Positions 28,292 through 63,916 are shown, counted from the stretch's first letter. The stretch: 64,000 nt of DNA from Alphaproteobacteria bacterium (GCA_039980135.1 JBDXCV010000003.1:620001-684000); one strand, 5' to 3'. Notes: a model not told the origin generated them from the sequence alone. Numbers and translations: made by a program.

Positions 28292-29347
28292 ATGGACATG
28301 GAGCAGTTCCGCTCCATGCTGCTCGATTCCGTCGGTGTCGGATTGGCGGTTGTCGAGCAGGAAACATTTGGTGTGCTTCTGCACAACGCGATGTTCGGCG
28401 AATGGTTTCCGGACATCGTCTCAGGTGAAGTGAGTTTCACGGACCTGCTGCCGAAGTTCGATGCCGAACTCGTCAAGCAACGAATTGCCCAGGGCGAATC
28501 CTGGAAATGCGAGGCCGAGGTCAAGCCGAAGCGCCGGGCGATTTCGCTCGCCGTCGAGTTTGTACCCGCGGATGGTGCCGGGCATGGCGAAATCATGGTT
28601 CAGTGCCAGAACATCTCGAAGATCAAGGAACTCGAATATATGATCGAGTCCTACTCGAAGATGATCGAGCGCCAGAACCGCGATCTGAAAAAGGAAAAGG
28701 AACGGGTTGAGAAGCTGTTGCTCAACATCATGCCGCAGCAGGTCTATGAGGAGTGGAAGGAGTTCGGTGTCACCACGCCGCAGCGTTTCGACAGCGCCTC
28801 GGTCCTGATGCTCGATTTTGTCGGCTTCACCCAGATGGCGATTTCTCAGGATCCGACCAAGCTGATTTCCGAACTCAACGACATCTTCACGGCGTTCGAC
28901 CGGATCGTCGAGCAGTTCGGCTGCGAGCGGCTGAAAACCATCGGCGACGCCTATGTCGCCGTGTCGGGATTGCCCGAAGCGAATCCGGATCACGCGCGCA
29001 ATATTGCCCGTGTGGCGCTGCGTTTCGTGCGTTACCTCAAGCGGCGCAATGAAAACAGCGAGGTTGAGTGGAACTGCCGCGTCGGCATCAACACCGGACC
29101 CGTGATCGGCTCGGTCGTGGGGGTGCAGAAATATGTCTATGACATCTTCGGTCCCGGCGTGAATCTCGCTGCCCGTATCGAGGCGGTGTGCGAGCCGATG
29201 GAGATTCTCGTCGGTGAAGGAACCTATACCCAAATCCAGAACGAGTTCCGGCTGAGCGATGTCGGCGAACACGAGATCAGGGGTTTCGGGTCGCAGCAGC
29301 TGTACCGCCTCGACGGCGATTTCACCCCGGCAAACGATTCCATTTAG
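28292..29347 (+). CDS. PAS - coiled coil - class III adenylate cyclase
   Basis: A 351-residue soluble cyclase. A PAS-like domain spans about residues 8-108. A charged helix, residues 112-145, forms a signalling coiled coil. The catalytic domain spans about 165-340. Catalytic metals are Asp175 and Asp219. The purine-selecting pair is Lys215 and Asp284, the ATP-specific combination, rather than the Glu/Cys of guanylate cyclases. Asn291 and Arg295 complete the transition-state set. The product is predicted to be cAMP. The ATG at 28292 has GGAG nine bases upstream; a TTG at 28265 would overlap the globin stop. Co-transcription with the truncated globin implies oxygen or NO control. Confidence 0.92.
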   Translation: MDMEQFRSMLLDSVGVGLAVVEQETFGVLLHNAMFGEWFPDIVSGEVSFTDLLPKFDAELVKQRIAQGESWKCEAEVKPKRRAISLAVEFVPADGAGHGEIMVQCQNISKIKELEYMIESYSKMIERQNRDLKKEKERVEKLLLNIMPQQVYEEWKEFGVTTPQRFDSASVLMLDFVGFTQMAISQDPTKLISELNDIFTAFDRIVEQFGCERLKTIGDAYVAVSGLPEANPDHARNIARVALRFVRYLKRRNENSEVEWNCRVGINTGPVIGSVVGVQKYVYDIFGPGVNLAARIEAVCEPMEILVGEGTYTQIQNEFRLSDVGEHEIRGFGSQQLYRLDGDFTPANDSI

Positions 29348-49984: not shown

Positions 49985-51328
49985 TCAGAAGCTGCGAATG
50001 AAGCCCAGCTCGATATAGTCGTTCTTCCGCCAGCGTCCGAACTGGGTGTCGTCGGGCCCATTGTAGAAGCCCCCCGAAAGCCGGAACTCGGTGTTGTCGT
50101 CCGGTTCGAAGCTGATCTGGCTGCCGAGGCTCGAATCACCATCGCGGAAATTATGGGTCCCGCCGATCCGGAAGCTCCATTCGTCGTCACGCTGGAAAGT
50201 GATGCGCATGAGAACGCTCTGGCGGTGGGGGCGTGAGCGGGCCGAGTTGGTGACGAAGTTCGTCGCCGTCTGGGACGACATCGACAGGTCCTGGGAGAAT
50301 TCGAGGACCGGGCGGATCTCCTCCAGGCCCAGCTCTGAAGCGAATTCGGTTTCGCGCACGGTGCCGCCGACAGAATATTTTATGAATTTCTGATCTTCAT
50401 CGTCATAGGTGTGCTGGTAGATGGCGTCGGAATAGAACTGCCATTCACCGAAAGTGACCGAGGCACCCGCCGCCGGCGAAAACGCCTTGGGCTGGCTCTT
50501 GATGAAAACATTGGGGGCGGTGGTGCTTTCGAGCACCGGGTATACCGACGGCCCGACATGCGCGAGCGCGTAAAAATCGAACCCGTCGCGTACGCCCTCA
50601 TACTTCGTCATGTAGGACCAGTTCGAAACGCTGCTGTCGCGGAACCGCTCGTTGATCCTTACGGGCGGCCCGCCCACCACGGTCGGCGTGCTTACGGAAA
50701 AGAAGGTCCCGTCGCCCGAAAGGCCCTTCCAGCGCGAATCGCCATCCGATGACTGCGCACGCTCCTCGAAGGGCATGACGTAGAAGGACAGGGTGTCGTT
50801 TTCGATGAAGTAGTCGAAACGCCCCTGCCAGACCCCGAACTCCTGGGCGTGAAGCGGGTTCGCCCCCGCGACAAAACCGAACCTGTCCGTCGGGGCGTAG
50901 AGATTGGCGAATCCCACCTCGATCGGCGCCTTGCCGACAACAACGGTGTAGTCGAACTTTTCCAGGCTCAGGAAGGCGCGGTTGACGTCGATCCATCGCG
51001 CTTCCGACCGCTCGTTGCCCGGCGGCGTCAGGAAGCGGCGCGTTTCGCTGCGGCCCGTATTCGCGACGGCCTGCGCGTTGAAATTGAAAAATAGCTCATC
51101 GGTAATTCCGGTGAACGTGTCCATCTCAAGGCGTGAATAGAACTGGAAATGCTTGTCGTCGATCTTGTCCGACTGGTTCTGAACATTCTTCAGAAAACCG
51201 GTCACGAATGCTTCGCCCCGATAGGTCGAGTTTCCGAAGAACTCTTTCGCCGACGTTACAAGATCGACGGCCGCGGCCGGTTGCGTCGCCGCGACAAGCA
51301 GAAAGGTTGCGATGGCCAGTTTACGCAT
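49985..51328 (-). CDS. Outer-membrane beta-barrel protein of RND operon
   Basis: A 447-residue protein with an N-terminal signal peptide (KLAIATFLLVAATQPAAA) and strongly alternating amphipathic strands to the end. It terminates in an aromatic IELGFIRSF, typical of BAM-targeted barrels. Acidic YDDEDQ and R-rich loops suggest surface loops. No specific family is sure; it may resemble DUF1302-like barrels seen beside RND lipid exporters. TGATG links it to the RND gene stop. It would supply the outer-membrane part of the export path. Confidence 0.75.
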   Translation of the reverse strand: MRKLAIATFLLVAATQPAAAVDLVTSAKEFFGNSTYRGEAFVTGFLKNVQNQSDKIDDKHFQFYSRLEMDTFTGITDELFFNFNAQAVANTGRSETRRFLTPPGNERSEARWIDVNRAFLSLEKFDYTVVVGKAPIEVGFANLYAPTDRFGFVAGANPLHAQEFGVWQGRFDYFIENDTLSFYVMPFEERAQSSDGDSRWKGLSGDGTFFSVSTPTVVGGPPVRINERFRDSSVSNWSYMTKYEGVRDGFDFYALAHVGPSVYPVLESTTAPNVFIKSQPKAFSPAAGASVTFGEWQFYSDAIYQHTYDDEDQKFIKYSVGGTVRETEFASELGLEEIRPVLEFSQDLSMSSQTATNFVTNSARSRPHRQSVLMRITFQRDDEWSFRIGGTHNFRDGDSSLGSQISFEPDDNTEFRLSGGFYNGPDDTQFGRWRKNDYIELGFIRSF

Positions 51329-54066
51329 CAATTCGATTCCCCAACCTGTGCGCGCGTCTCGATGGCGATTAGCCGGCTCGCGAGGACGCGGCTGATATTG
51401 TGGTTCAGGCGCGATGCAATACGCGGATAGAAGCGCAAGGCGCGGCTGACCTGTTCGGCATCCAGGGCCAGGAGCTTACCGGCACTCTTCGCGCGAATGG
51501 TCGCCGTGCGATCGGCATCGCCCAGATATCCGATCTCTCCGAAGGCCTCACCGGCCGTCATCACGCCCAGGGTTGCCGTCGCGCCCCCGCGGTCCTGGAG
51601 TGCCTCGAACTCGCCCTCGAGAACAACATACATATTACTGTCCCTCTGACCCTCGCGGATAACCTCGGTTCCGGCATCCACGTCGCAGACCTCCGACAAC
51701 AGGACGGCCTTCTTGATCTGCCCCTGCGACATATCGCGGAATATCGGGCTGTTGCGGACCACGTCCTGTGCCAGGTGAAGTTTCAGAACATCCCAGATGC
51801 CGACGAGCCGCAGCCGGCGCAGGATGATCGGGGTGAGCAGGAGGTCTGCGAGCATCGCGTAGATCATCGTGAGCGCGGCCAGCGCACCGAACTGGGCGAC
51901 GATGGCGAAGTTCGAGAACATCATGATCCCGAAACCGAGGGCGAGCGACACGGAAGTTGAAATAACCGGCACCGCCTCCGACCACAGCGTCTCGCGCACG
52001 GCAAGTTGGTGGTCGGGATTGTTGCGACACTCGTCATTGTAGCGCGTGAACAGATGTGTCGTGTCGTCGATCGCGATGCCGATCGCTATCGCTGCCACCG
52101 TTGCCGTGCCCGGATTGAGCGGGATATCGAGCATGCCCATGAGGCCGAAGTTCATGATCACGGGAAAGGCATTCGGTACGAGCGATACGAGCCCGGCCAG
52201 CGGCGATGTGAACAGGACCGCAATGATCACGAAAATAACCACGAGCAGCACCGCCAACGAGGATACCTGTCCGCCGAACAGGGATTCGGCAGCCCGGTTG
52301 ATCATCAGATTCTCTCCGGAGAACTGATAGGTAATGTCTTCGTCCAGCGTGCGCGCGAGGTAGGCCTCGACCCGCGCAAGCTGCGCGTTCAGTTCCGATG
52401 ATTCCGACAAATTGTGCCGGACGACGATGTTGGTGCGGCGGTTGTCGGCGCTGATGTAGCGCTCGAGATCGTCGCGCTGGAACATCAGCATGTATTGTTC
52501 GACCAGCGGTCGCTGGTCGGGCACCGTGTGAAATGCGGGATCGGCGCCGTTCATTTCCCGGTTCACGAGTGCCAGATGGTCCGGAAGCGAGATGACCTTG
52601 TCGTACACCCTCTGTTCGCGCAGGAAGGCAACCGTTTCCTCGGCTTGCTTGAGGAACTCGGGCTCCAGGAAGGCGTCCTCGCGCTCCGACTTCAGGGTCA
52701 GGTAGAAAACCTGCATCCCCGACAATTTCTCATGGAGCTGGTTGGCGTCCTCCACGATCGGATGTGCGCCGCGAAAATAGGATAGCGGGTCGTTGCTGAC
52801 CTTGATCGTGGTCGCAAAAAAGGCAAACACGACGACGACCGAAGCGGTCACGATCATCACGACCTTGCCGTGATTTTCGACCAGATTGATAAACATCAGC
52901 ACGAGGGCCCCGATGATACCCTTCGGGCGCTCGCCTTCCGGCGCGAGCTTGCTCTGCTTTGGCCCGATGACGGTCAGCAGCAGCGGCACGATTAACACCG
53001 TACAGACGAGATTGGCGATCATCGCGAAAGCGGTGGCGAAGGCGAAGTCCCGGATCAGCGGGATGTCGTTGAGGGCGTTGGATCCGAAACCGATCGCCGT
53101 CGTGAATGACGTGATGAAGATCGGCAGACCAACATGCTTGGCCATATACCGAATGGCGCGCCGCCGGTCCTTCTCGTCGTCAAGGCCCTGCAGATAGGCC
53201 GATAGCAGATGGGTGTCCTCTGTCGAGCCGATGACGATGACGAGAGAGGGCACGATCGCCGTCAGGAGCGTCAGCGGCAGGCCGAAATGTCCCATGAAGC
53301 CGAATGTCCAGGCGACACTCAGCAGGGACGTGGCGATCGGAATGACCGCCGCGCTCGACGTCCGCAGGAAAAAGATGATCGAGGTGATGAGAATGAGTGT
53401 GGAGATCGGCGACAGGACCTGCATGTCGGCGAACATGCCGCGTTCGATCTCGACGTTGAGGCGGGGCGGCCCGACCTGAAAAACAGCGCCCAGTTCCTCG
53501 CGCAGGGGTGCGATCGCTTCCTCGACAGCGTCATGGAATTCGAGGTTGAACTTGGGGTCACGGCGATCGCGCTGGATCGTGACATTGATGGCGGTCGTGG
53601 TGCCGTCTTTCGAGATAAAGTTGTCGCGGACCAGCGGGCTGTAGAGCGCATTTTCGCGGGCCTTGTCGATCTCCTCCTGCTCGAAGGGGGTCTCGTACAT
53701 GATCTGACCCATGTCGAGGAATCCGGCCTTGTCGCGAATGTTCAGTACGCTGAAGAGGCTTTCGACGTTTTCGACCGCATCGAGCGATTCCAGCGCGACG
53801 ACCGTGTCCTCGATCGCGAGAAGCTTATCCTCCGTCCACAGATCCGTGTCCCGGATATAGATGATCGTCGTGTTGTCGGAGCCGAATTCCGCGACCGTCT
53901 CGCGATAACCCGGCCAGCCCGGGTCGTTCTCGCTGATGAGGCTGTCGTAACTGGTGTCGATCTGCAGATTCGGCAGGCCGGAGACAAGCCCCAGGGTAAT
54001 CAGGATGAGCAGAACGAGCGAAACCAGCCGGTTGCGTGCCCCCAGCGTCATGATCCATTCGACCAT
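51328..54066 (-). CDS. RND/MMPL-family exporter with C-terminal cyclic-nucleotide-binding domain
   Basis: A 912-residue protein. The first about 768 residues form an RND superfamily permease of the hopanoid/MMPL type: a helix at 14-34, a periplasmic domain, a helix bundle with VIVIGSTEDTHLLSAY, a second periplasmic loop and a second bundle with IGIAIDDTTHLFTRY. These carry the acidic residues used in proton coupling. Residues about 769-912 are a cyclic-nucleotide-binding domain with Gly843-Glu844 in FGEIGYLGD and Arg853 in RTATIRA, the canonical phosphate-binding cassette. The fusion predicts gating by cAMP or cGMP. It is in one operon with MPE, LolA-like and barrel genes. GGGGGCACG precedes the ATG. 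Confidence 0.9.
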   Translation of the reverse strand: MVEWIMTLGARNRLVSLVLLILITLGLVSGLPNLQIDTSYDSLISENDPGWPGYRETVAEFGSDNTTIIYIRDTDLWTEDKLLAIEDTVVALESLDAVENVESLFSVLNIRDKAGFLDMGQIMYETPFEQEEIDKARENALYSPLVRDNFISKDGTTTAINVTIQRDRRDPKFNLEFHDAVEEAIAPLREELGAVFQVGPPRLNVEIERGMFADMQVLSPISTLILITSIIFFLRTSSAAVIPIATSLLSVAWTFGFMGHFGLPLTLLTAIVPSLVIVIGSTEDTHLLSAYLQGLDDEKDRRRAIRYMAKHVGLPIFITSFTTAIGFGSNALNDIPLIRDFAFATAFAMIANLVCTVLIVPLLLTVIGPKQSKLAPEGERPKGIIGALVLMFINLVENHGKVVMIVTASVVVVFAFFATTIKVSNDPLSYFRGAHPIVEDANQLHEKLSGMQVFYLTLKSEREDAFLEPEFLKQAEETVAFLREQRVYDKVISLPDHLALVNREMNGADPAFHTVPDQRPLVEQYMLMFQRDDLERYISADNRRTNIVVRHNLSESSELNAQLARVEAYLARTLDEDITYQFSGENLMINRAAESLFGGQVSSLAVLLVVIFVIIAVLFTSPLAGLVSLVPNAFPVIMNFGLMGMLDIPLNPGTATVAAIAIGIAIDDTTHLFTRYNDECRNNPDHQLAVRETLWSEAVPVISTSVSLALGFGIMMFSNFAIVAQFGALAALTMIYAMLADLLLTPIILRRLRLVGIWDVLKLHLAQDVVRNSPIFRDMSQGQIKKAVLLSEVCDVDAGTEVIREGQRDSNMYVVLEGEFEALQDRGGATATLGVMTAGEAFGEIGYLGDADRTATIRAKSAGKLLALDAEQVSRALRFYPRIASRLNHNISRVLASRLIAIETRAQVGESN

Positions 54067-54126
54067 CGTGCCCCCAAATAATCGTCGTCAGTTGTGCCGA
54101 AGCGATCCAGATATCCCGAAGGCGAA

Positions 54127-54939
54127 CTAGCGCAGGTGGCGGTTCGAGGTGATAAAGCGCGTGTGGAACAGCTGTTCGGGAACGTCGCCTTCCTCGAAGG
54201 TGCGCTCGATCACTTCAATTCGGGTCTTGTGCTTGAGTTTTTCATTGTCCATCAGCGAGATGCGTGCCCGATACATATCGCCGTCGATCTGTTCGATCTG
54301 CTCGGCGGCCTGCTTTTTGATAAAGCGTCCCCGCCGATCGAAATAATCGGTGCGGGCGATAAAAAAGATGTCCTTGAGAACGAAGAAGCGGCGGGACTTG
54401 TAGCCGGTTTCCGCCTTCACCGTGGCATCCTGCGGGAAGGCATCGACGACGAAATACTCGGTGCCGTCAATCGTCTCGTCCGGCAGGCGTTCATAGCTGA
54501 ACTTGTCGCGCGATTCCGAGATGAGGTCCTCGAAGGTGTAGTCGGTTCCCATGAAGTAATTCTTGCGGCCGCCCTCTGCGATGCGTTTTGCCCTGTTGCC
54601 TTGCGCGGGCAAATAGAGCCACTGGTCGTCATCCTGGTTGTCCTGCTGCCATGTGAGCAATGCCGTACCGCGAATGCCGGATGGTGCGTGGAAGGCCATC
54701 AGATAGCGCGTCTCGTCGTCGCTAATTTCACGCGCATAACGCTGAACATCGCGCTTTTCTTCATTCCCGCTCCGGTCGATGAGCGTCATCTTCTGGACTT
54801 CGAATTCAAAGGGTCTGTCGTGGCGCTCCGAGACCTCATCCATGATCTGCCGGCCCGTGAGATTGTCTTGCGCGCCCGCCGGTGAAACCCAGACTGCGAC
54901 CGCGGCCGCCGCCACAAGCATTGTGAATCGCCCCATCAT
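54127..54939 (-). CDS. LolA-like outer-membrane lipoprotein-sorting protein
   Basis: A 270-residue periplasmic carrier. The signal peptide is MGRFTMLVAAAAVAVWVSPA to GAQ. The mature chain fits the outer-membrane lipoprotein-sorting (LolA/LolB-like, PF17131) fold used beside RND exporters: LTWQQDNQDDDQWLYLPA, FMGTDYTFEDL, then ETGYKSRRFFVLK. ATG 54939 is chosen because GGGGAAG lies just upstream; an ATG at 54951 is an alternative. It may carry a lipid from the RND pump to the barrel. Confidence 0.8.
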   Translation of the reverse strand: MMGRFTMLVAAAAVAVWVSPAGAQDNLTGRQIMDEVSERHDRPFEFEVQKMTLIDRSGNEEKRDVQRYAREISDDETRYLMAFHAPSGIRGTALLTWQQDNQDDDQWLYLPAQGNRAKRIAEGGRKNYFMGTDYTFEDLISESRDKFSYERLPDETIDGTEYFVVDAFPQDATVKAETGYKSRRFFVLKDIFFIARTDYFDRRGRFIKKQAAEQIEQIDGDMYRARISLMDNEKLKHKTRIEVIERTFEEGDVPEQLFHTRFITSNRHLR

Positions 54940-54961
54940 CTGCTTCCCCATATTCAACTGT

Positions 54962-55723
54962 TCAATGTCCAAAGACCGACACCGGCTCGCCGTTGCGCCA
55001 TTCCTGCAGGCTGACCTCGCCATTCTCGATGACGACGAATGTCGGGTTGAACAACCAAGTGCCCGTATTCACATATAAACGCCCTTCGCCCAAGTTTACC
55101 ACACCTGCATGGTGGGTGTGACCGAAGCAAACAACGTCGAAACCGCGCCGTAGAATCTCGTCCGCAGCAGCGCTGAAGGCCTTGTCTTCGCCCTCGATTC
55201 CCTCGCCGTCCTCGGGCCTGCGAAAGCGCGACTTCAGCTTCTCGAAACGAATCCACTGGTAGTAGAGGCGCGGCCATGCGTGCAGGAAGTAACCGGCCAG
55301 ATGGGTTACAAACTCATAGGCCGCCGGGTGGTTCGAGAAAAACGGGTCGTACAGATGCCCATGTTCGACGCGGATACGCTTGTCGCTTGAGCGCACATTG
55401 AGGAACGGGACGACCTGGAATCCGCCCCATGCCTCGATGAAATGCTCAAAAACGATGTCGTGATTTCCAACCACGTAATACAGGTGGTTGCCGGCATTGA
55501 ATATGCTGCTCAGGCGCGACATGAGCTCCGGTGCCTCGCGCGCCAGTTTCGTGAACGAGGTCTGCGCGATTTCCAGCCAGTCGCCGTTGATGCACAGCGC
55601 GTAGTCGGTCGTGGAGACCCACTCCAGAAACTCCCCGATTTCGCGCTTGGTCGTGCAGAACGGATTGCCGAGATGCACGTCCGACATCAGGATGATCTTG
55701 TCCTCGCGTACGTTCGTCTTCAC
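54962..55723 (-). CDS. Metallophosphoesterase, LpxH-like
   Basis: A 253-residue calcineurin-like phosphoesterase. Motifs are SDVHLGN (D-x-H), NGDWLE (GD), VVGNHDIVFE (GNH-D/E) and FGHTHHAG (GH-x-H), which bind two metals. Helical segments resemble UDP-2,3-diacylglucosamine hydrolase (LpxH/LpxI group) or YfcE-like enzymes. It could alternatively be a cAMP phosphodiesterase acting on the local cyclases' product. The first four bases overlap the cNMP-binding gene. This ambiguity matters for the proposed system. Confidence 0.85.
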   Translation of the reverse strand: MKTNVREDKIILMSDVHLGNPFCTTKREIGEFLEWVSTTDYALCINGDWLEIAQTSFTKLAREAPELMSRLSSIFNAGNHLYYVVGNHDIVFEHFIEAWGGFQVVPFLNVRSSDKRIRVEHGHLYDPFFSNHPAAYEFVTHLAGYFLHAWPRLYYQWIRFEKLKSRFRRPEDGEGIEGEDKAFSAAADEILRRGFDVVCFGHTHHAGVVNLGEGRLYVNTGTWLFNPTFVVIENGEVSLQEWRNGEPVSVFGH

Positions 55724-56214
55724 GACGCGTCGTCTCCGCTGCCGGGTTCGTTCTCGTCTTCGGGCTGATGCTGGTATTCCGGTCCGGTGATTGATTTGTG
55801 CATCTGCTCCGTGCCCATGCTCGCCTGACGCTCGACCTCGTCGGCATAGCGACCGCTGAGCGAGCGGATGCGCCCGCTCATCTTCTGGAGCATCTCGAAC
55901 GCGAAGGTCGGATCACGGCGGATCTTGAGCAAAAACCCGCCCGAATGAATGACGTACACCCTGACTTCGCCCTTCGCACGTACGGTCGCGCTTCGGGGCT
56001 CGGATTCCAACAGCGACATTTCACCGAAAAAGTCGCCCTTTTCCATCGTGTTGAGAATGATTTCATGATCGCCGGCGCGCTTCGTGGCGACAGCCTGACC
56101 GGACTGGATGATGTACATTTCGCGGGTCAGGTCGCCTTCACGGACGATCACTTCACCGTCCTGAAAGACCTTTTCAAGTTCCTGTTCGAAACGCTGATCT
56201 TTCTTGAAAAACAT
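55720..56214 (-). CDS. Stand-alone cyclic-nucleotide-binding domain protein
   Basis: A 164-residue soluble protein. A cNMP-binding beta-roll covers about residues 10-110 with Gly64-Glu65 in FFGEMSLLE and Arg74 in PRSATVRA, canonical for cAMP-type ligands. The C-terminal 40 residues are polar and disordered (PEDENEPGSGDD). No HTH is present, so it is not a Crp-type regulator; it probably acts on a partner. It is the first gene of the RND operon, 94 bases after the CHASE2 cyclase stop. Confidence 0.88.
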   Translation of the reverse strand: MFFKKDQRFEQELEKVFQDGEVIVREGDLTREMYIIQSGQAVATKRAGDHEIILNTMEKGDFFGEMSLLESEPRSATVRAKGEVRVYVIHSGGFLLKIRRDPTFAFEMLQKMSGRIRSLSGRYADEVERQASMGTEQMHKSITGPEYQHQPEDENEPGSGDDAS

Positions 56215-56308
56215 ACCCTCGGGCCCCCGTCCGTCCCTTCTATATCGCAGCGATAGCGCGGACGCGAATCGCGACAGTCAATTACGCGGTCAATCGGGTG
56301 GCCGCGAA

Positions 56309-58300
56309 TCACTTCGTTGTCAGATTGTTGATCGGCTCCCAGTCCGCCTCCGGCGGATCCGCGGCGAGCGCGCGCACCCGCGCGCACCATACCGAAGCCA
56401 CCCGGTCGTCCGCCGCGATGCTTTCGAACAGTTCGGCGGAATCGTCGAATCGTCCTGCCCTGTATTGGGCTAGGGCTTCGGCGAAAGTCGCGAGACCGGC
56501 CCTCTGCTCCTCACTCACATTTTCCTCGAAGCCCAGCGGTTCGAATATTCGCACCGGCGTGTCCCGCCCCTTGACCCGAACCACATCGAGCTCGCGAAAC
56601 AGGATCCCCTCTCCACATTGACCCTTCGTCACCTCGTTCACGATGATCGTCGAGCCGTACATCTTGTTCACGCCCTCAAGGCGCGAGGCGAGATTGATGT
56701 CATCGCCGACAATCGAGTAGCTCAGCCGGCGCCTGGAACCGATGTTGCCGACCAGAAGCGGTCCGGTACTGACCCCGTATCGATTGCGAAGACCCAGGCC
56801 ACCGGGGAGCGAAATCTCGTCGTTCAACGCCTCGACGCGCTCTTTGCAGGCGAGCACCGATTCGATCGCGTTGCGTGCGTGGTGGGGGTCGTCAAGCGGC
56901 GCGCCGAATGCCGCGACCACCGCGTCACCGACGAATTGCGCAACGAAACCGTTATATTCCTCGATGGTATCGGCCATCACGGTGTAGACGGTGTTGAGGA
57001 AATCAACCAGTTCGGACGGGGACAGAAGTTCGGAATAGGTCGAATAATTCTCGAGATCCGAGAGCCAAACCGTCATCTCCCGTTCCTCGCCGCCTTGCTC
57101 GGGTATCCGGCCCTCCTCGACGAGGCGTTCGACCACGGCCGGTGCCAGGTAATGCTCGAATGCATTGCGGATGTGGCGCTGCTGGCGCCGGTAGAAGCCG
57201 CCGACAACCGCGCTGCCGACCCCGTAGGCCGCAGCAATCCCGAGCGACGGCATCACGACCGGGAAGATGAGCGCGTAGGAGAAAAAGACCCAGAATGCGC
57301 CCACCCACCAGGCTATAATGAATAAGCCGACGGCACCGAGGCGCAGGAATTGCGGCCAGACCGCGAACGCCAGCGCGATGCCCAGCGCGACCATGAACAG
57401 GACACTGACCGTTTCTTCGATGAGCGACGGCACATGGCGCTCGCTGCCTTCCAAGAACTGGGCCAGCGCGTGGGCATGGATGACCACGCCCGGGATGTTC
57501 GAAAGATCCGGGTCGAATACGGCGGCGTAGGGCGTTCGGTGCCGGTCGGAATCCGGCAGATCGGCCCCGATCAGGACGATCTTGTCGGCGAACCAGGCAT
57601 CGGGCAGCAAGGTTGCAGAGTGGATGGGGAAGCGCGCGAAGGTGGCTTTGTTCGTGTCGGCAGGCGCACCACGCCACACCAGAGGGCGGCCGTCATCGGG
57701 CGCCGCATGGCCGAGCGCCCCTGCGATGGCGAGACTGAAACCCGGGACGCGCGCGTCACCGGTCCCGGCGCCCGCGGATACGGCGCGTACAACCCCCGAA
57801 AGGGTGTCGGAAATCAGGACGATGTGGCCGCGATTCTCGGGCGGGACAAATGCCGTCTGGAATGCGTACTGGCTTTCGGTCAGCCCGTCTTCGATCGTCG
57901 ACCAGCCGACGATTATCGGGACCGAAAAATTACGCAGAGTCTGCGCCAGCAGCAGATCCTTTTGTTGTTCCGTGCCGCGATCGAACAGCATGTCGATTCC
58001 CACGGCACGAACCTTGGCGGCTTCGAGCTTCCGCAAGACCGTCGTCAACACCGCGCGGTCATAGGGCGAACGATATGGGAGTTGCGCCAAACTCTCCTCG
58101 GTGATCGTCAAGATCAGTATATCCGGGTGTTGTGCCGCGTTCGGCGTCAACATGGCCACGCGCAAATCGGTCACTTGTCGTTCAAGCAGGACGAGGAAGG
58201 GCAGCACGCGTGGAAGCGCGATGATCACTGCGGACAGCGCCAACGTGATCGCTACGGTCGAAAAAATACGCCGCGTGAGATGTCGCTGATGGAACCGCAA
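56309..58300 (-). CDS. CHASE2-type membrane adenylate cyclase
   Basis: A 663-residue protein. An N-terminal anchor helix (12-35) is followed by a periplasmic CHASE2 domain (about 40-290; IDMLFDRGTEQQ, GADLPDSDRHRTPYA). Three helices (about 295-372) and a class III cyclase (about 405-590) follow. Metal-binding Asp415 and Asp459, Asn536 and Arg540 are present. The usual adenine-selecting Lys is Gln455 and the following Thr/Asp position is Ser529, so purine choice or activity is uncertain. A C-terminal tail with possible helical repeats ends INNLTTK. It probably produces the signal read by the downstream cNMP-binding proteins. Confidence 0.9.
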   Translation of the reverse strand: MRFHQRHLTRRIFSTVAITLALSAVIIALPRVLPFLVLLERQVTDLRVAMLTPNAAQHPDILILTITEESLAQLPYRSPYDRAVLTTVLRKLEAAKVRAVGIDMLFDRGTEQQKDLLLAQTLRNFSVPIIVGWSTIEDGLTESQYAFQTAFVPPENRGHIVLISDTLSGVVRAVSAGAGTGDARVPGFSLAIAGALGHAAPDDGRPLVWRGAPADTNKATFARFPIHSATLLPDAWFADKIVLIGADLPDSDRHRTPYAAVFDPDLSNIPGVVIHAHALAQFLEGSERHVPSLIEETVSVLFMVALGIALAFAVWPQFLRLGAVGLFIIAWWVGAFWVFFSYALIFPVVMPSLGIAAAYGVGSAVVGGFYRRQQRHIRNAFEHYLAPAVVERLVEEGRIPEQGGEEREMTVWLSDLENYSTYSELLSPSELVDFLNTVYTVMADTIEEYNGFVAQFVGDAVVAAFGAPLDDPHHARNAIESVLACKERVEALNDEISLPGGLGLRNRYGVSTGPLLVGNIGSRRRLSYSIVGDDINLASRLEGVNKMYGSTIIVNEVTKGQCGEGILFRELDVVRVKGRDTPVRIFEPLGFEENVSEEQRAGLATFAEALAQYRAGRFDDSAELFESIAADDRVASVWCARVRALAADPPEADWEPINNLTTK

Positions 58301-58487
58301 ACTCCGCTCCGAAATGCCCCCGAATTATGCACCAAACATAACCGACCGAGGGCCACACAACATCCTTTTCGCGCAAAGAAGCAAGCGGCCGGCCATTTCA
58401 ACTCGGGGCCGAGACCATTCTTGGCCTTCAATAAGGCATATGCTAAAGAGCACTCGCTACATTTGGTTAATATTTGGGGAACAGGCT

Positions 58488-59642
58488 GTGGCTCGTCATA
58501 ATCTCGTGGATTCTCGACATGGATCGCTGTCGGCGATGGCTGAAAAGCTGTTCCGCACCAACCGGTTCGATTTCGGGCCGCTGCTCGCGGCAGCCGTGTT
58601 GGTGGCGTTTTCCGTTACCGATGCTCAGGCGACAAACAACAGCGATACAACCGAGTTCAACCCGGGTTCGCAGGCCGTCGATTCACAGTTGAGTAGATCG
58701 AACACAACCAACTTTGTCGCGGTTATCGGAAACCAGATCAGCCGGTTCGGCGGCAATCTTGCGAGTTTCATTCTGACCGTCGAACTGCCCGGCGAACGCG
58801 AGGGTCTGGCTGCCGGTTACGAGCCCGAGCGCGTGGGTGTCTGGACGAACATCTCGGCCACCAATATTCGTGACACCGTCACCGCGACACGATACTCCGG
58901 CGAACTTCGCAACTATGTGGTGGGTGCGGATTATCGGTATTCCGACGAGCTGCTGGCCGGCATCGCGCTCGGCAAGGATCACGGCGAAATTGACACGCCC
59001 TTCAACAGCGGCAAGGTCAACACGGATTCGAAGACGTTATCCGGCTATGCCTCGTATTCCTTCGACGAGACGTTCAGCGTCGATTCTATCCTCGGCTATG
59101 CGCATGGCAGTTTCGATCAGGTCCGCAACGCCGGCGGCATCATCAATGCGAGCGACACGTCGTTCAACCGCTGGTTCGCCCAGGTAAACGGCAATGGCGT
59201 ATTCCCTATCCCCGAAGTCGACAATCTGCTGCTCGCCGGCCAGGCAGGAGCGCTCTATGCCTTCGAGCGCGTCGATGACTTTACCGAGACGGGCGTGGGT
59301 GGCAATCAGGTTCTGAGCAGAAGCAATCCGCTGACCCAGCTTCAGTTTTCCGGGCGGGCCGGCTATAGCTTTTTCGATCTTGCTGACGGTTGGGTCGTCC
59401 ATCCTTACGGCCAGCTGCGATATATTCGCGATCTTCAGGCCAACCGCGTCGATGTCGGGCCGGGTCAAGTGGACCACTCGAATGACGACAGCGAGGCGCA
59501 GCTCTCGCTCGGTGTCGATTTCTTCGGCGGTCCGAACCTGAGCGGGAACCTCGAATTCACGCACAGCATGCTGCGTGAAAATTTCCGCAGCAACGCCTTT
59601 TCCGTGAACCTCCGCTGGCAATTCGGACCAAGCGCTGAATAA
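58488..59642 (+). CDS. Autotransporter-type beta-barrel protein
   Basis: A protein of 384 residues from the GTG at 58488, which has GGGGA seven bases upstream. A signal-like stretch FDFGPLLAAAVLVAFSV is followed by amphipathic strands of an autotransporter/porin-like C-terminal barrel (YVVGADYRYSDELLAGIALG; SLGVDFFGGPNLSGNLEFT). It ends VNLRWQFGPSAE, so the terminal F is followed by four residues, atypical. ATGs at 58440 and 58536 are alternatives. It is divergent from the cyclase across about 190 bases. Confidence 0.75.
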   Translation: MARHNLVDSRHGSLSAMAEKLFRTNRFDFGPLLAAAVLVAFSVTDAQATNNSDTTEFNPGSQAVDSQLSRSNTTNFVAVIGNQISRFGGNLASFILTVELPGEREGLAAGYEPERVGVWTNISATNIRDTVTATRYSGELRNYVVGADYRYSDELLAGIALGKDHGEIDTPFNSGKVNTDSKTLSGYASYSFDETFSVDSILGYAHGSFDQVRNAGGIINASDTSFNRWFAQVNGNGVFPIPEVDNLLLAGQAGALYAFERVDDFTETGVGGNQVLSRSNPLTQLQFSGRAGYSFFDLADGWVVHPYGQLRYIRDLQANRVDVGPGQVDHSNDDSEAQLSLGVDFFGGPNLSGNLEFTHSMLRENFRSNAFSVNLRWQFGPSAE

Positions 59643-61285: not shown

Positions 61286-63658
61286 TTAACCGTCGGACGT
61301 CCTGGCGAGCGCGAAGTCGGCCCCCTCCTGCAGCGATACCGGGGTTTGACGCACCGTGTCATGTTCCATCGCGATTACCGCCACCCGCTCGCGGATATAG
61401 TCAATCAACTCGTCGACGGTGACGACACCGTCGCGCGCTCCCGCATCGGCGGCCCCCTGCAGCCCATCGAGGGCGGCGGACGTGAACACACCGTGGCCCA
61501 GCGCCGATAGTTCGGTCGCCAGCTGTTCATTGTCGGACGAGGCGATGATGTGAACCCCCGCATTATGTGCCAGCAGGCGCAATGCCTTGATCTCGTCGAA
61601 CCCCCGGAAACTATCGAGCAATGCCCCTGATTTGCAGGTGTCGATCATGACGAAGATTTTTCGCGCGCCGATCTGGATCGCGCCGTCGCGCAGGTGATCG
61701 GAGTTGATCCCGCCGGCGGCCAGAACGTCAGGGTCGGCGGCGTCCGCGACCTCATGTGGGACAAAGTACCAGTCGCGTCCGATCGCCTCACCGTGTCCGG
61801 CGAAAAAAATCATGATCACGTCTTCGGGTTTCGTCGCGCGGACCACATCGAGCAACGCGAGGATTCCGTCCCGGGTCGCCGCCGCATCGTAGATTTCATG
61901 AACCTTCACCTGTTCGAACGGCAGGTGACGCACACGTTTGAAGAAGTTCGCGATGCCACGCCCGTCAGGCACCCCGTAATTCAGGTTGAGCGATGGATTC
62001 ACATATTCATTGATGCCAACGACGATCAGGTGCAACTCACCCTGTCCGCCTTCGCCCGACTGGCTCACGGTGAAACTCGCGGGCTTGCTTTCCACGTTGG
62101 CCTCATTGGCTGCGATCGCCTGAAACTGATTCTGACCGACCACCAGGGGGACGATCAGCCGCAGCCGGTGCTCGTCGGCCTCTGTCTCGTCCGCGACCAA
62201 CTGCACGCCGGCTGTCTTCCCGCCGATAATCCGGTTGTTGTGATACAGCCGCAGCTCGGACACGCCGCCGCTGTTGTCGTTCTTCGCCACCACCTCCAGG
62301 TCGATCGCGGGCCGGCCATCTAGCGTGGTGGTGCCCTTCGACGCGATGGTGACCCGCGGCGGCACCGGAAAGCCCTCCGATATCGCCGCGCGCGCGCGGA
62401 CGGTTGCCGCGCCCTCGTCGATCAGTTGGGAAAGCACGCCGGGTTCGAAGTCTTCCGAAATTTTCTGATCCAGCTCGAACCCGCCTTCGGATGTTTGCCA
62501 TTGGACCGCGTTGATGCCGCCCTCGGAGCCGTCATACGCGCCCGACGCGTCCGCGACGACCCAGCCGGATTTTGTCGAGATCACCTGGGCCAGTTGGTCG
62601 CCGGTCGGCAAATCCCAGACCCGCGATGTGCCATCCACGCTGGCGGTGTGCAAAAACTGGTTCGTCGGCTCGAACGCCAGGTGGCGCACCGGCCCCCCAT
62701 GACCGCGAAAGACACGGGATTCTTCGCCACTTCGCATGTCGTACAAACGTACGATCGCATCCTCGCCGCCAACACCCACGAATCCCCGCCGGTCGTTGAC
62801 CGCCACCGACAGAGGTTTCGAATCGCTTTGAAAGGACAGGGTCTCGGTCCCGGCTTCACGGTCCCAGACGACGATTTCCCCGCCCGAACCGACGCCCGCG
62901 ACAACCTTTCCGTTTGTCCCGACGGCGACGGACACAATCGGTCTGTCGTGGCCGGTGAGCGTTTTCAACGCCGTGCCGGCCTCGAAGTCCCACACGCGGA
63001 CCGTGCGATCGTCCCCGCCGGTGATCAGGAAACGACCGTCCTGGGTCATTTTCATCGACGTTATCGCCCCGGCATGCCCCGATAGTTCCGCGGTCCGTGA
63101 CGCGCCCGCGATGTTCCAGACCCTCACCATGCCGTCCTCGCCCACGGTGACGAGCGTCCGCTCCGCAGGCTCGATCGCGACGCCGGTGACGGCCCCTTCA
63201 TGTGCCGCAAACTCCGCGATGCGCCGGCCGTTTGAAAGCTGCCAGACACGCGCGAAACCGTCCTCGCCGGCGGTGGCCAGGAACTGGCCGCCGGCACCGA
63301 TTGCCAGGTCGAGAATTTCGCCCTCATGGGCGTCGATCGTGGCGGCTTCGCGTCCGAATTCGAGATCCCATATCCGGACGGAGCCATCGCCGAGCCCGGT
63401 CACCAGGAATCGCGGTGAACTCAGCGCCAGCGCATGGACTTCGATGGCCTCGCCCGGCTTGATCACAAGCCGTGCGTTGCGGGCGAGGCGGATGTTGGTC
63501 TGAATGCCGCGCGTCAGTCTGTCGGTCTGCACCCGAAGCGTCGGGATTTGAATTCTTTGCGCGGAGGCTGTCTGGGTTTGCGCGACAGGAACGATGGTCA
63601 ATGCGACGAGGACCGCGACGACCCTCAAACCCATCAAGCTATGCCAGTTCAGTTGCAT
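61286..63658 (-). CDS. Secreted WD40 propeller - caspase (C14) protein
   Basis: A 790-residue protein. GGAGGA lies eight bases before ATG 63658, so this start is preferred to an ATG 18 bases upstream. The signal peptide ends ASA before QRIQIP. Seven WD40 blades follow (GSVRIWDL, GFARVWQL, GMVRVWNI, RTVRVWDF, GEIVVWDR, AIVRLYDM, GTSRVWDL), then a linker and an Ig-like domain. A caspase-like p20 domain follows with His in FFAGHGEAIG and Cys in MIDTCKSGALL. Substrates are unknown. It lies downstream of the second cyclase. Periplasmic location is predicted, unusual for metacaspases. Confidence 0.9.
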   Translation of the reverse strand: MQLNWHSLMGLRVVAVLVALTIVPVAQTQTASAQRIQIPTLRVQTDRLTRGIQTNIRLARNARLVIKPGEAIEVHALALSSPRFLVTGLGDGSVRIWDLEFGREAATIDAHEGEILDLAIGAGGQFLATAGEDGFARVWQLSNGRRIAEFAAHEGAVTGVAIEPAERTLVTVGEDGMVRVWNIAGASRTAELSGHAGAITSMKMTQDGRFLITGGDDRTVRVWDFEAGTALKTLTGHDRPIVSVAVGTNGKVVAGVGSGGEIVVWDREAGTETLSFQSDSKPLSVAVNDRRGFVGVGGEDAIVRLYDMRSGEESRVFRGHGGPVRHLAFEPTNQFLHTASVDGTSRVWDLPTGDQLAQVISTKSGWVVADASGAYDGSEGGINAVQWQTSEGGFELDQKISEDFEPGVLSQLIDEGAATVRARAAISEGFPVPPRVTIASKGTTTLDGRPAIDLEVVAKNDNSGGVSELRLYHNNRIIGGKTAGVQLVADETEADEHRLRLIVPLVVGQNQFQAIAANEANVESKPASFTVSQSGEGGQGELHLIVVGINEYVNPSLNLNYGVPDGRGIANFFKRVRHLPFEQVKVHEIYDAAATRDGILALLDVVRATKPEDVIMIFFAGHGEAIGRDWYFVPHEVADAADPDVLAAGGINSDHLRDGAIQIGARKIFVMIDTCKSGALLDSFRGFDEIKALRLLAHNAGVHIIASSDNEQLATELSALGHGVFTSAALDGLQGAADAGARDGVVTVDELIDYIRERVAVIAMEHDTVRQTPVSLQEGADFALARTSDG

Positions 63659-63916
63659 CGAGAAATTCCTCCACATGACACGATCTTTCGTGTTGGTCCG
63701 TTCGTTCCGGGAATGTGCACCGGCCCGGTAGCTTAGCGTACTCGCGGTCCAGGCCAATCGAAGTTTCGTGGACGAAGTGAACTCCCGGCCTTCAGAATCC
63801 CGGGAAAATTCCACACAACATCATGATATTACGTGATTTTTCCTGACTACCGCCGCCTGAAGGGAAAGCCCGGTCTCGATGCGCCAGGGACCGAGTCCGG
63901 CCCCGGCGCGGCCGGA

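Follow-up and report, generated by a model that had tools for sequence, protein, structure and literature searches.

An RND transporter with a fused cyclic-nucleotide-binding domain, encoded beside envelope transport genes in several bacterial phyla, as a candidate for direct second-messenger control

Can bacterial cells set the activity of an envelope lipid pump directly with a cyclic nucleotide? The question is raised by positions 49,985–58,300 of a 64,000-nucleotide stretch of Alphaproteobacteria bacterium DNA (GCA_039980135.1 JBDXCV010000003.1:620001-684000; hereafter the window), where the original prediction placed a possible cyclic-nucleotide-gated envelope export system of five consecutive minus-strand genes with a CHASE2 cyclase immediately upstream. 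The locus touches on two open questions, namely how the passage of lipids to the bacterial outer membrane is regulated and what function PqiABC has.

Gene content and layout of the locus

Open reading frame calls and Pfam searches agreed on all six minus-strand genes as predicted, the LpxH label of the phosphoesterase excepted. The run from 58300 down to 49985 encodes a CHASE2 cyclase, a lone cNMP-binding protein, a metallophosphoesterase, a LolA-like protein, an RND transporter with a cNMP-binding (CNB) domain and a barrel, with the following features (sources in brackets):

56309..58300, minus strand: CHASE2 plus class III nucleotide cyclase, 663 aa, TTG start (Pfam CHASE2, Guanylate_cyc)
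55720..56214, minus strand: stand-alone cNMP-binding protein, 164 aa (Pfam cNMP_binding)
54962..55723, minus strand: calcineurin-like metallophosphoesterase (Pfam)
54127..55023, likely true start ~54951, minus strand: LolA-like periplasmic protein (PF17131)
51328..54066, minus strand: RND/MMPL transporter with fused C-terminal cNMP-binding domain, 912 aa (Pfam, model)
51334..51726, minus strand: cNMP-binding domain of the RND fusion, residues ~781–911 (Pfam, model)
51490..51552, minus strand: phosphate-binding cassette GEAFGEIGYLGDADRTATIRA of the fused CNB domain (homologue column counts)
49985..51331, minus strand: predicted outer-membrane beta-barrel of OprD/Occ-AlgE size, ~18 strands (AlphaFold2, structure alignment)

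The cyclase gene, whose CHASE2 and class III cyclase domains were both recovered by Pfam, indeed lies immediately upstream, 94 bp from the lone cNMP gene. Overlaps of 4 nt join the lone cNMP gene to the phosphoesterase gene and the RND gene to the barrel gene, while 60 bp separate the LolA-like and RND genes. No dividing promoter or terminator signal stood clearly above shuffled sequence within the six-gene run, and a single operon is plausible from this arrangement. On the other strand, the divergent neighbour of the cyclase gene (window 58314-59642, plus strand) encodes an autotransporter beta-domain protein.

The lone cNMP-binding protein (79.5 bits, 1.9e-22 in Pfam) has the pocket FFGEMSLLESEPRSATVRA and, in alignment, carries the phosphate-binding cassette signature as FGEMSLLESEPRSAT; its best PDB matches are PKG/PKA regulatory domains, with SthK also among the matches. 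Close orthologues linked to the fusion were recovered only in a Rhodospirillaceae metagenome-assembled genome (MAG; L028) and in Paramagnetospirillum (L039). The adjoining metallophosphoesterase (36 bits in Pfam) had been described as LpxH-like, an identity that we reject, as its scores fall far under the curated LpxH cut-offs (36.8 vs 134 bits for NF003743; 16.7 vs 190 bits for TIGR01854) and LpxH proteins, its nearest PDB sequences, match only distantly (E ~1e-4). Nor is it a common partner of the fusion: 48 of the 50 fusion genomes lack it, the two that carry it have it linked to the fusion, and it was found in no other of the 385 genomes sampled from the class. Across all the searches, the phosphoesterase with an adjoining lone CNB gene turned up in just three places, the window, L028 and L039. 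Judged by its sequence distribution, the phosphoesterase is a rare accessory of the RND-CNB set; for the pair, our preferred function is that of a phosphoesterase responsive to a nucleotide or of a phosphodiesterase acting in feedback, the cases being too few for a firm role.

The RND-CNB fusion, its distribution and its partners

The RND gene product scores 122.4 bits against MMPL PF03176 (cut-off 20.5), is also over the cut-offs of PF12349 and PF02460, and carries its fused cNMP_binding domain at residues 796-877 (57 bits, cut-off 27.5); it does not reach the cut-offs set for the subfamily models HAE3, ActII and HpnN. Its domains, RND fold and conserved transmembrane (TM) acidic residues place it in the RND superfamily, MMPL/HAE3 type. 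The AlphaFold2 model (pLDDT 87.3) shows an RND core followed by a folded C-terminal CNB domain, and the nearest solved folds in Foldseek are MmpL4/MmpL5, MmpL3, NPC1/NPC1L1 and HpnN, at 12–16% identity to the solved structures in the Foldseek list. These proteins transport lipids, sterols, siderophores or similar molecules. The fusion resembles MmpL3/4/5, HpnN, BstA and NPC1 in its 12-TM RND fold, two periplasmic domains, TM acids and likely lipid or hydrophobe substrate, and differs from them by the added C-terminal cNMP-binding domain; the C-terminus of MmpL-type RND proteins is cytosolic. Acidic pairs lie in the two TM repeats (E283/D284 in TM4, D667/D668 in TM10), and E283, D284 and D667 are invariant in 41 aligned RND-CNB sequences, as would be expected if transport is proton-coupled.

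Conservation of the fused CNB domain extends to its predicted nucleotide pocket. In column counts over 81 homologues, 79 rows reach the pocket region (the other two being L106, cut by a contig end, and L043, a frame-split gene), and G843, E844, R853 and A855 are invariant in 78–79 of the 79, the sole exception being an X. The domain is kept in all complete homologues fetched, its profile matches SthK, and the cassette GE...R(S/T/A)A is present, a sequence signature of nucleotide competence. Position 854 is T in 68 rows, S in 5 and V in 5. A Thr following the pocket Arg occurs in cGMP-preferring eukaryotic CNB domains, and Thr854 therefore keeps cGMP open alongside cAMP as a possible ligand.

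Fusions separate sharply from ordinary pumps in the class search, with identities of at least 38% and alignments to residue 899 or beyond, vs 24–27% identity and alignments ending at ~750 for ordinary RND pumps. The search of genome contigs recovered 80 RND-CNB loci, in Alpha-, Gamma- and Zetaproteobacteria, Magnetococcales, Desulfobacterota, Nitrospinota and Myxococcota, as well as in single planctomycete, verrucomicrobial and Omnitrophota MAGs, the last three depending on MAG binning. The fusion was present in 21 of 398 sampled genomes of the phylum, and the nearest fetched relative of the window was the Rhodospirillaceae MAG L028 (67% RND identity). Neighbourhoods were analysed for the loci from the genome-contig search, with counts based on six-frame HMM matches because gene picking was poor in high-GC loci (L039, L066, L098).

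The expectation that the six genes would recur as a unit was not borne out in general. All six occur together again only in L039, where they are rearranged such that a phosphoesterase/lone-CNB pair is divergent from CHASE2 cyclase-LolA-RND-barrel, while the genus-mate L028 has five genes in window order and lacks the cyclase. The six-gene set is thus rare, and it is the RND-CNB plus LolA-like core that is widespread across phyla. In L028, a membrane protein with a C-terminal CNB domain (L028:6093-7463) stands in the cyclase's place upstream of the lone CNB gene.

The LolA-like protein of the window (PF17131, 140.4 bits vs cut-off 30, 6.5e-41) begins with a signal-peptide-like stretch when read from the likely start at ~54951, and 67 of the 80 related loci hold a homologue, in almost every case as the gene immediately upstream of RND. 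The barrel protein has no Pfam or NCBIfam family; its AlphaFold2 model (pLDDT 85.8) aligns with VIA-align Z ~23 to OccK/OpdQ and 21 to AlgE, predicting a porin of OprD/Occ-AlgE size, a result that gives fold and not substrate. Barrel-family homologues are found 3' of the RND gene, in place of Pqi genes, in 19 loci, mostly of Alphaproteobacteria and methanotrophs.

The other main neighbours are PqiA, PqiB and PqiC, homologues of MCE intermembrane lipid transport proteins, which occur in ~40–45 loci (about half of those fetched), mostly directly upstream of the LolA-RND-CNB genes. The order PqiA-PqiB-PqiC-LolA-RND(CNB) is seen in ~40 loci, some cut by contig ends, and Pfam searches of representatives confirmed PqiA PF04403, MlaD PF02470 and the PqiC family PF03886. 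The window locus differs in having none of PqiA, multi-MCE PqiB or PqiC by ORF and Pfam searches, and a barrel downstream of the RND gene instead; three MlaD-domain matches lie elsewhere in its own genome, in separate frames. A tree of the fusions gathers most of the Pqi-type loci in a single well-supported clade, with the barrel type spread around it, and a third small clade has neither Pqi nor barrel (L048, L059, L066, L071, L073, L089, L098). The direction of transport by Pqi is debated, and we know of no RND-CNB partner of the E. coli Pqi system. The BstABC sterol proteins are a further known system close in kind to the RND-CNB set.

Two described systems combine similar components. The APE exporter ApeL-ApeM-ApeN (LolA-like, RND and LolB-like), a proposed lipid mover to the outer membrane, likewise encodes an RND pump with a dedicated LolA-like protein, but its gene list is without a CNB domain, cyclase or porin-like barrel, and it lies within a biosynthetic cluster (PMC8253772). 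The long-chain-alkane-induced set of Thalassolituus (TOL_3187/TOL_3188) shares the combination of MMPL, LolA-like and outer-membrane porin components, but has the LolA-like domain on the MMPL protein itself, with no CNB domain reported (PMC6304351).

Class III cyclases near the fusion

The window cyclase matches CHASE2 (114 bits, 1.2e-32) and Guanylate_cyc PF00211 (64.5 bits, 1.3e-17) in Pfam, and its class III signature is complete, comprising SDLENYS, FVGDAV (metal Asp pair) and GDDINLASRLEG (Asn/Arg motif). Alignment with other linked cyclases places Gln at the substrate-selecting Lys position and Ser at the partner position, and the canonical adenylyl cyclase pair (Lys with Asp/Thr) is absent; base-selecting pairs in linked cyclases elsewhere are K/T, Q/T, Q/S and E/G or E/A. 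With Q/S in place of the usual K/T or K/D, no particular product is predicted for the window cyclase.

PF00211 was found in all 50 fusion genomes (mean of 7.6 per genome) and, in the phylum sample, in 21/21 fusion genomes vs 230/377 others, a comparison uncorrected for shared ancestry. This co-occurrence at the genome level is weakened by class III cyclases being common in these phyla. At the locus level, 13 of the 50 fusion genomes (window locus left out) have a class III cyclase no more than 5 kb from the RND gene, vs 0.9 expected from the cyclase density of each genome (~14-fold), and the class III domain was confirmed by Pfam at all 13 loci, which reduce to 11 when the close relatives L032/L035 and L045/L049 each count once. 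Among RND pumps without a CNB domain, a cyclase was within 5 kb at 1 of 16 loci, and 4 of 14 genomes were without any class III cyclase; the trend against this small control is as expected and is only suggestive of linkage specific to the fusion. A crude motif search for GGDEF and EAL found no enrichment near the RND gene (one motif match each) that would indicate generic clustering of signalling genes. Most fusion loci have no cyclase nearby, which implies that any such control must often act in trans.

The linked cyclases carry different sensors: CHASE2 (window, L039), PAS (L103), 2Fe-2S (L045, L049), AAA-TPR (L056, L059, L071), HAMP (L101) and TPR-S (L032, L035), with no recognised sensor in L029 and L036, a diversity that points to repeated recruitment. 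The cyclase adjoins the set on the same strand in six cases (window, L029, L036, L039, L071, L103), and in L071 the AAA-TPR cyclase is directly upstream of the RND gene. L048:12986-13327 holds a class III cyclase adjoining the RND-CNB gene, broken by an in-frame stop. In L032 (3920-14600) and L035, LolA-RND-CNB is flanked by a TPR-S/cyclase gene and a TIR-TPR gene, reminiscent of conflict systems.

The genome of the window has 14 class III cyclase domains in total; besides that of the CHASE2 cyclase, two lie close to the locus, at window 28778-29314 (plus strand) and, just past the window end, at genome position C3:684166-684687. A WD40-repeat protein with a C-terminal caspase-like region (window 61286-63814, minus strand) adjoins one extra cyclase.

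Proposed cyclic-nucleotide control and alternative readings

Direct control of an envelope RND pump by cyclic nucleotides, the central element of the original prediction, gained strong comparative support at the sequence level from pocket conservation, cyclase clustering and the adjoining PqiABC genes. In the mechanism that we prefer, a proton-driven RND protein of MmpL/NPC1/HpnN type would hand a lipid or similar hydrophobe to the LolA-like periplasmic carrier, which would pass it to the outer membrane via the barrel (window) or PqiABC (many relatives). Binding of cAMP or cGMP to the cytosolic C-terminal CNB domain would set pump activity, the adjoining CHASE2 cyclase may sense a periplasmic or membrane cue and make the nucleotide beside the pump, and the lone CNB protein with its coupled phosphoesterase could form a lineage-specific second output or feedback arm, such as a nucleotide-regulated phosphoesterase. 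As a whole, we consider a core of this kind, in which cAMP or cGMP made locally gates a proton-driven RND transporter of lipids, to be reasonably probable.

The fused domain could instead be a structural, trafficking or assembly module, or hold a vestigial site, with cyclase proximity being incidental and the pump not gated at all. That most fusion loci lack a linked cyclase fits such a reading, but the residues that are invariant across phyla are those of the pocket, beyond those of the fold, and cyclases with diverse sensor domains lie near the gene far more often than by chance; we regard the absence of gating as improbable. Still less expected, and in our view very improbable, is a Pycsar-like anti-phage locus in which a non-canonical cNMP from the cyclase would open, or release from control, a CNB effector in the membrane. 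While the cyclase and lone CNB protein match PADLOC Pycsar models, and TPR-S cyclase and TIR-TPR genes accompany the fusion in L032/L035, the PADLOC matches fall in domains that are generic to cyclases and CNB proteins. In addition, the cyclase carries CHASE2 as its sensor, the supposed effector is a whole transporter partnered by LolA and by Pqi or the barrel, and large clades have stably kept the fusion together with Pqi.

A different possibility keeps the nucleotide control and reverses the flow, such that a substrate-responsive set would carry lipids or hydrophobic nutrients toward the cell interior, as uptake or retrograde transport. The modelled barrel fold, that of an OprD/Occ substrate-specific channel, and the debate over Pqi direction are compatible with uptake. 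Further support comes from Thalassolituus, in which the MMPL/LolA-like protein and adjoining porin are strongly up on C28 alkane (PMC6304351). Set against this, no clear hydrocarbon-degradation operon was seen in the immediate neighbourhood of the set, and the MmpL, HpnN, APE and Bst systems, as characterised or proposed, work in the direction of the outer membrane. We therefore hold inward transport to be unlikely, yet a somewhat more serious candidate than an ungated pump. As links to hydrocarbon growth as well as to export exist for related RND/LolA-like/barrel sets, the label 'export' given originally to the locus is not retained.

Returning to the gated lipid pump, the comparative data suggest that many unrelated bacteria use a second messenger as a direct switch for a pump of envelope lipids. 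The broader proposal is that RND-CNB proteins make up a class of lipid transporters gated by cyclic nucleotides, widespread across phyla and working with PqiABC or a dedicated barrel, in which cAMP or cGMP would act directly, independent of transcription, on outer-membrane lipid supply, and into which sensor-diverse cyclases are plugged locally; we judge the chances of this to be about even. SthK-type channels similarly join a membrane transport protein to a cytosolic CNB domain, with the difference that RND-CNB is a predicted secondary active pump and not a channel. MFS-CNBD fusions are mentioned in a review as recruited regulatory domains (PMC10710835), to be distinguished from the RND lipid-type pump described here, which is not an MFS carrier. 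The searched passages of a review of transporter modulation cover RND control by small proteins and contain no RND-CNB fusion, and no description of an RND/MMPL-CNB fusion, or of a link between RND and Pqi/LolA, was found in the open-access literature. An Acidithiobacillus RND pump near an adenylate cyclase was considered as a precedent and set aside, as it pairs a class IV (CYTH) cyclase with a tripartite efflux pump. As a kind, the transporter-CNB fusion is already on record among MFS pumps, with the RND version not found described in the open-access literature.

A conserved pump with a nucleotide-sensor domain beside PqiABC offers a direct, testable handle on lipid transport via cAMP/cGMP. 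If the gating is real, the class III cyclases found in environmental bacteria would gain a defined target outside transcription, and RND pumps would join channels and the uncharacterised MFS fusions as objects of cyclic-nucleotide gating. A Methylococcaceae RND-CNB protein (L070:9512-12736) has an extra N-terminal FHA domain, which suggests that phosphorylation gives this pump a second input.
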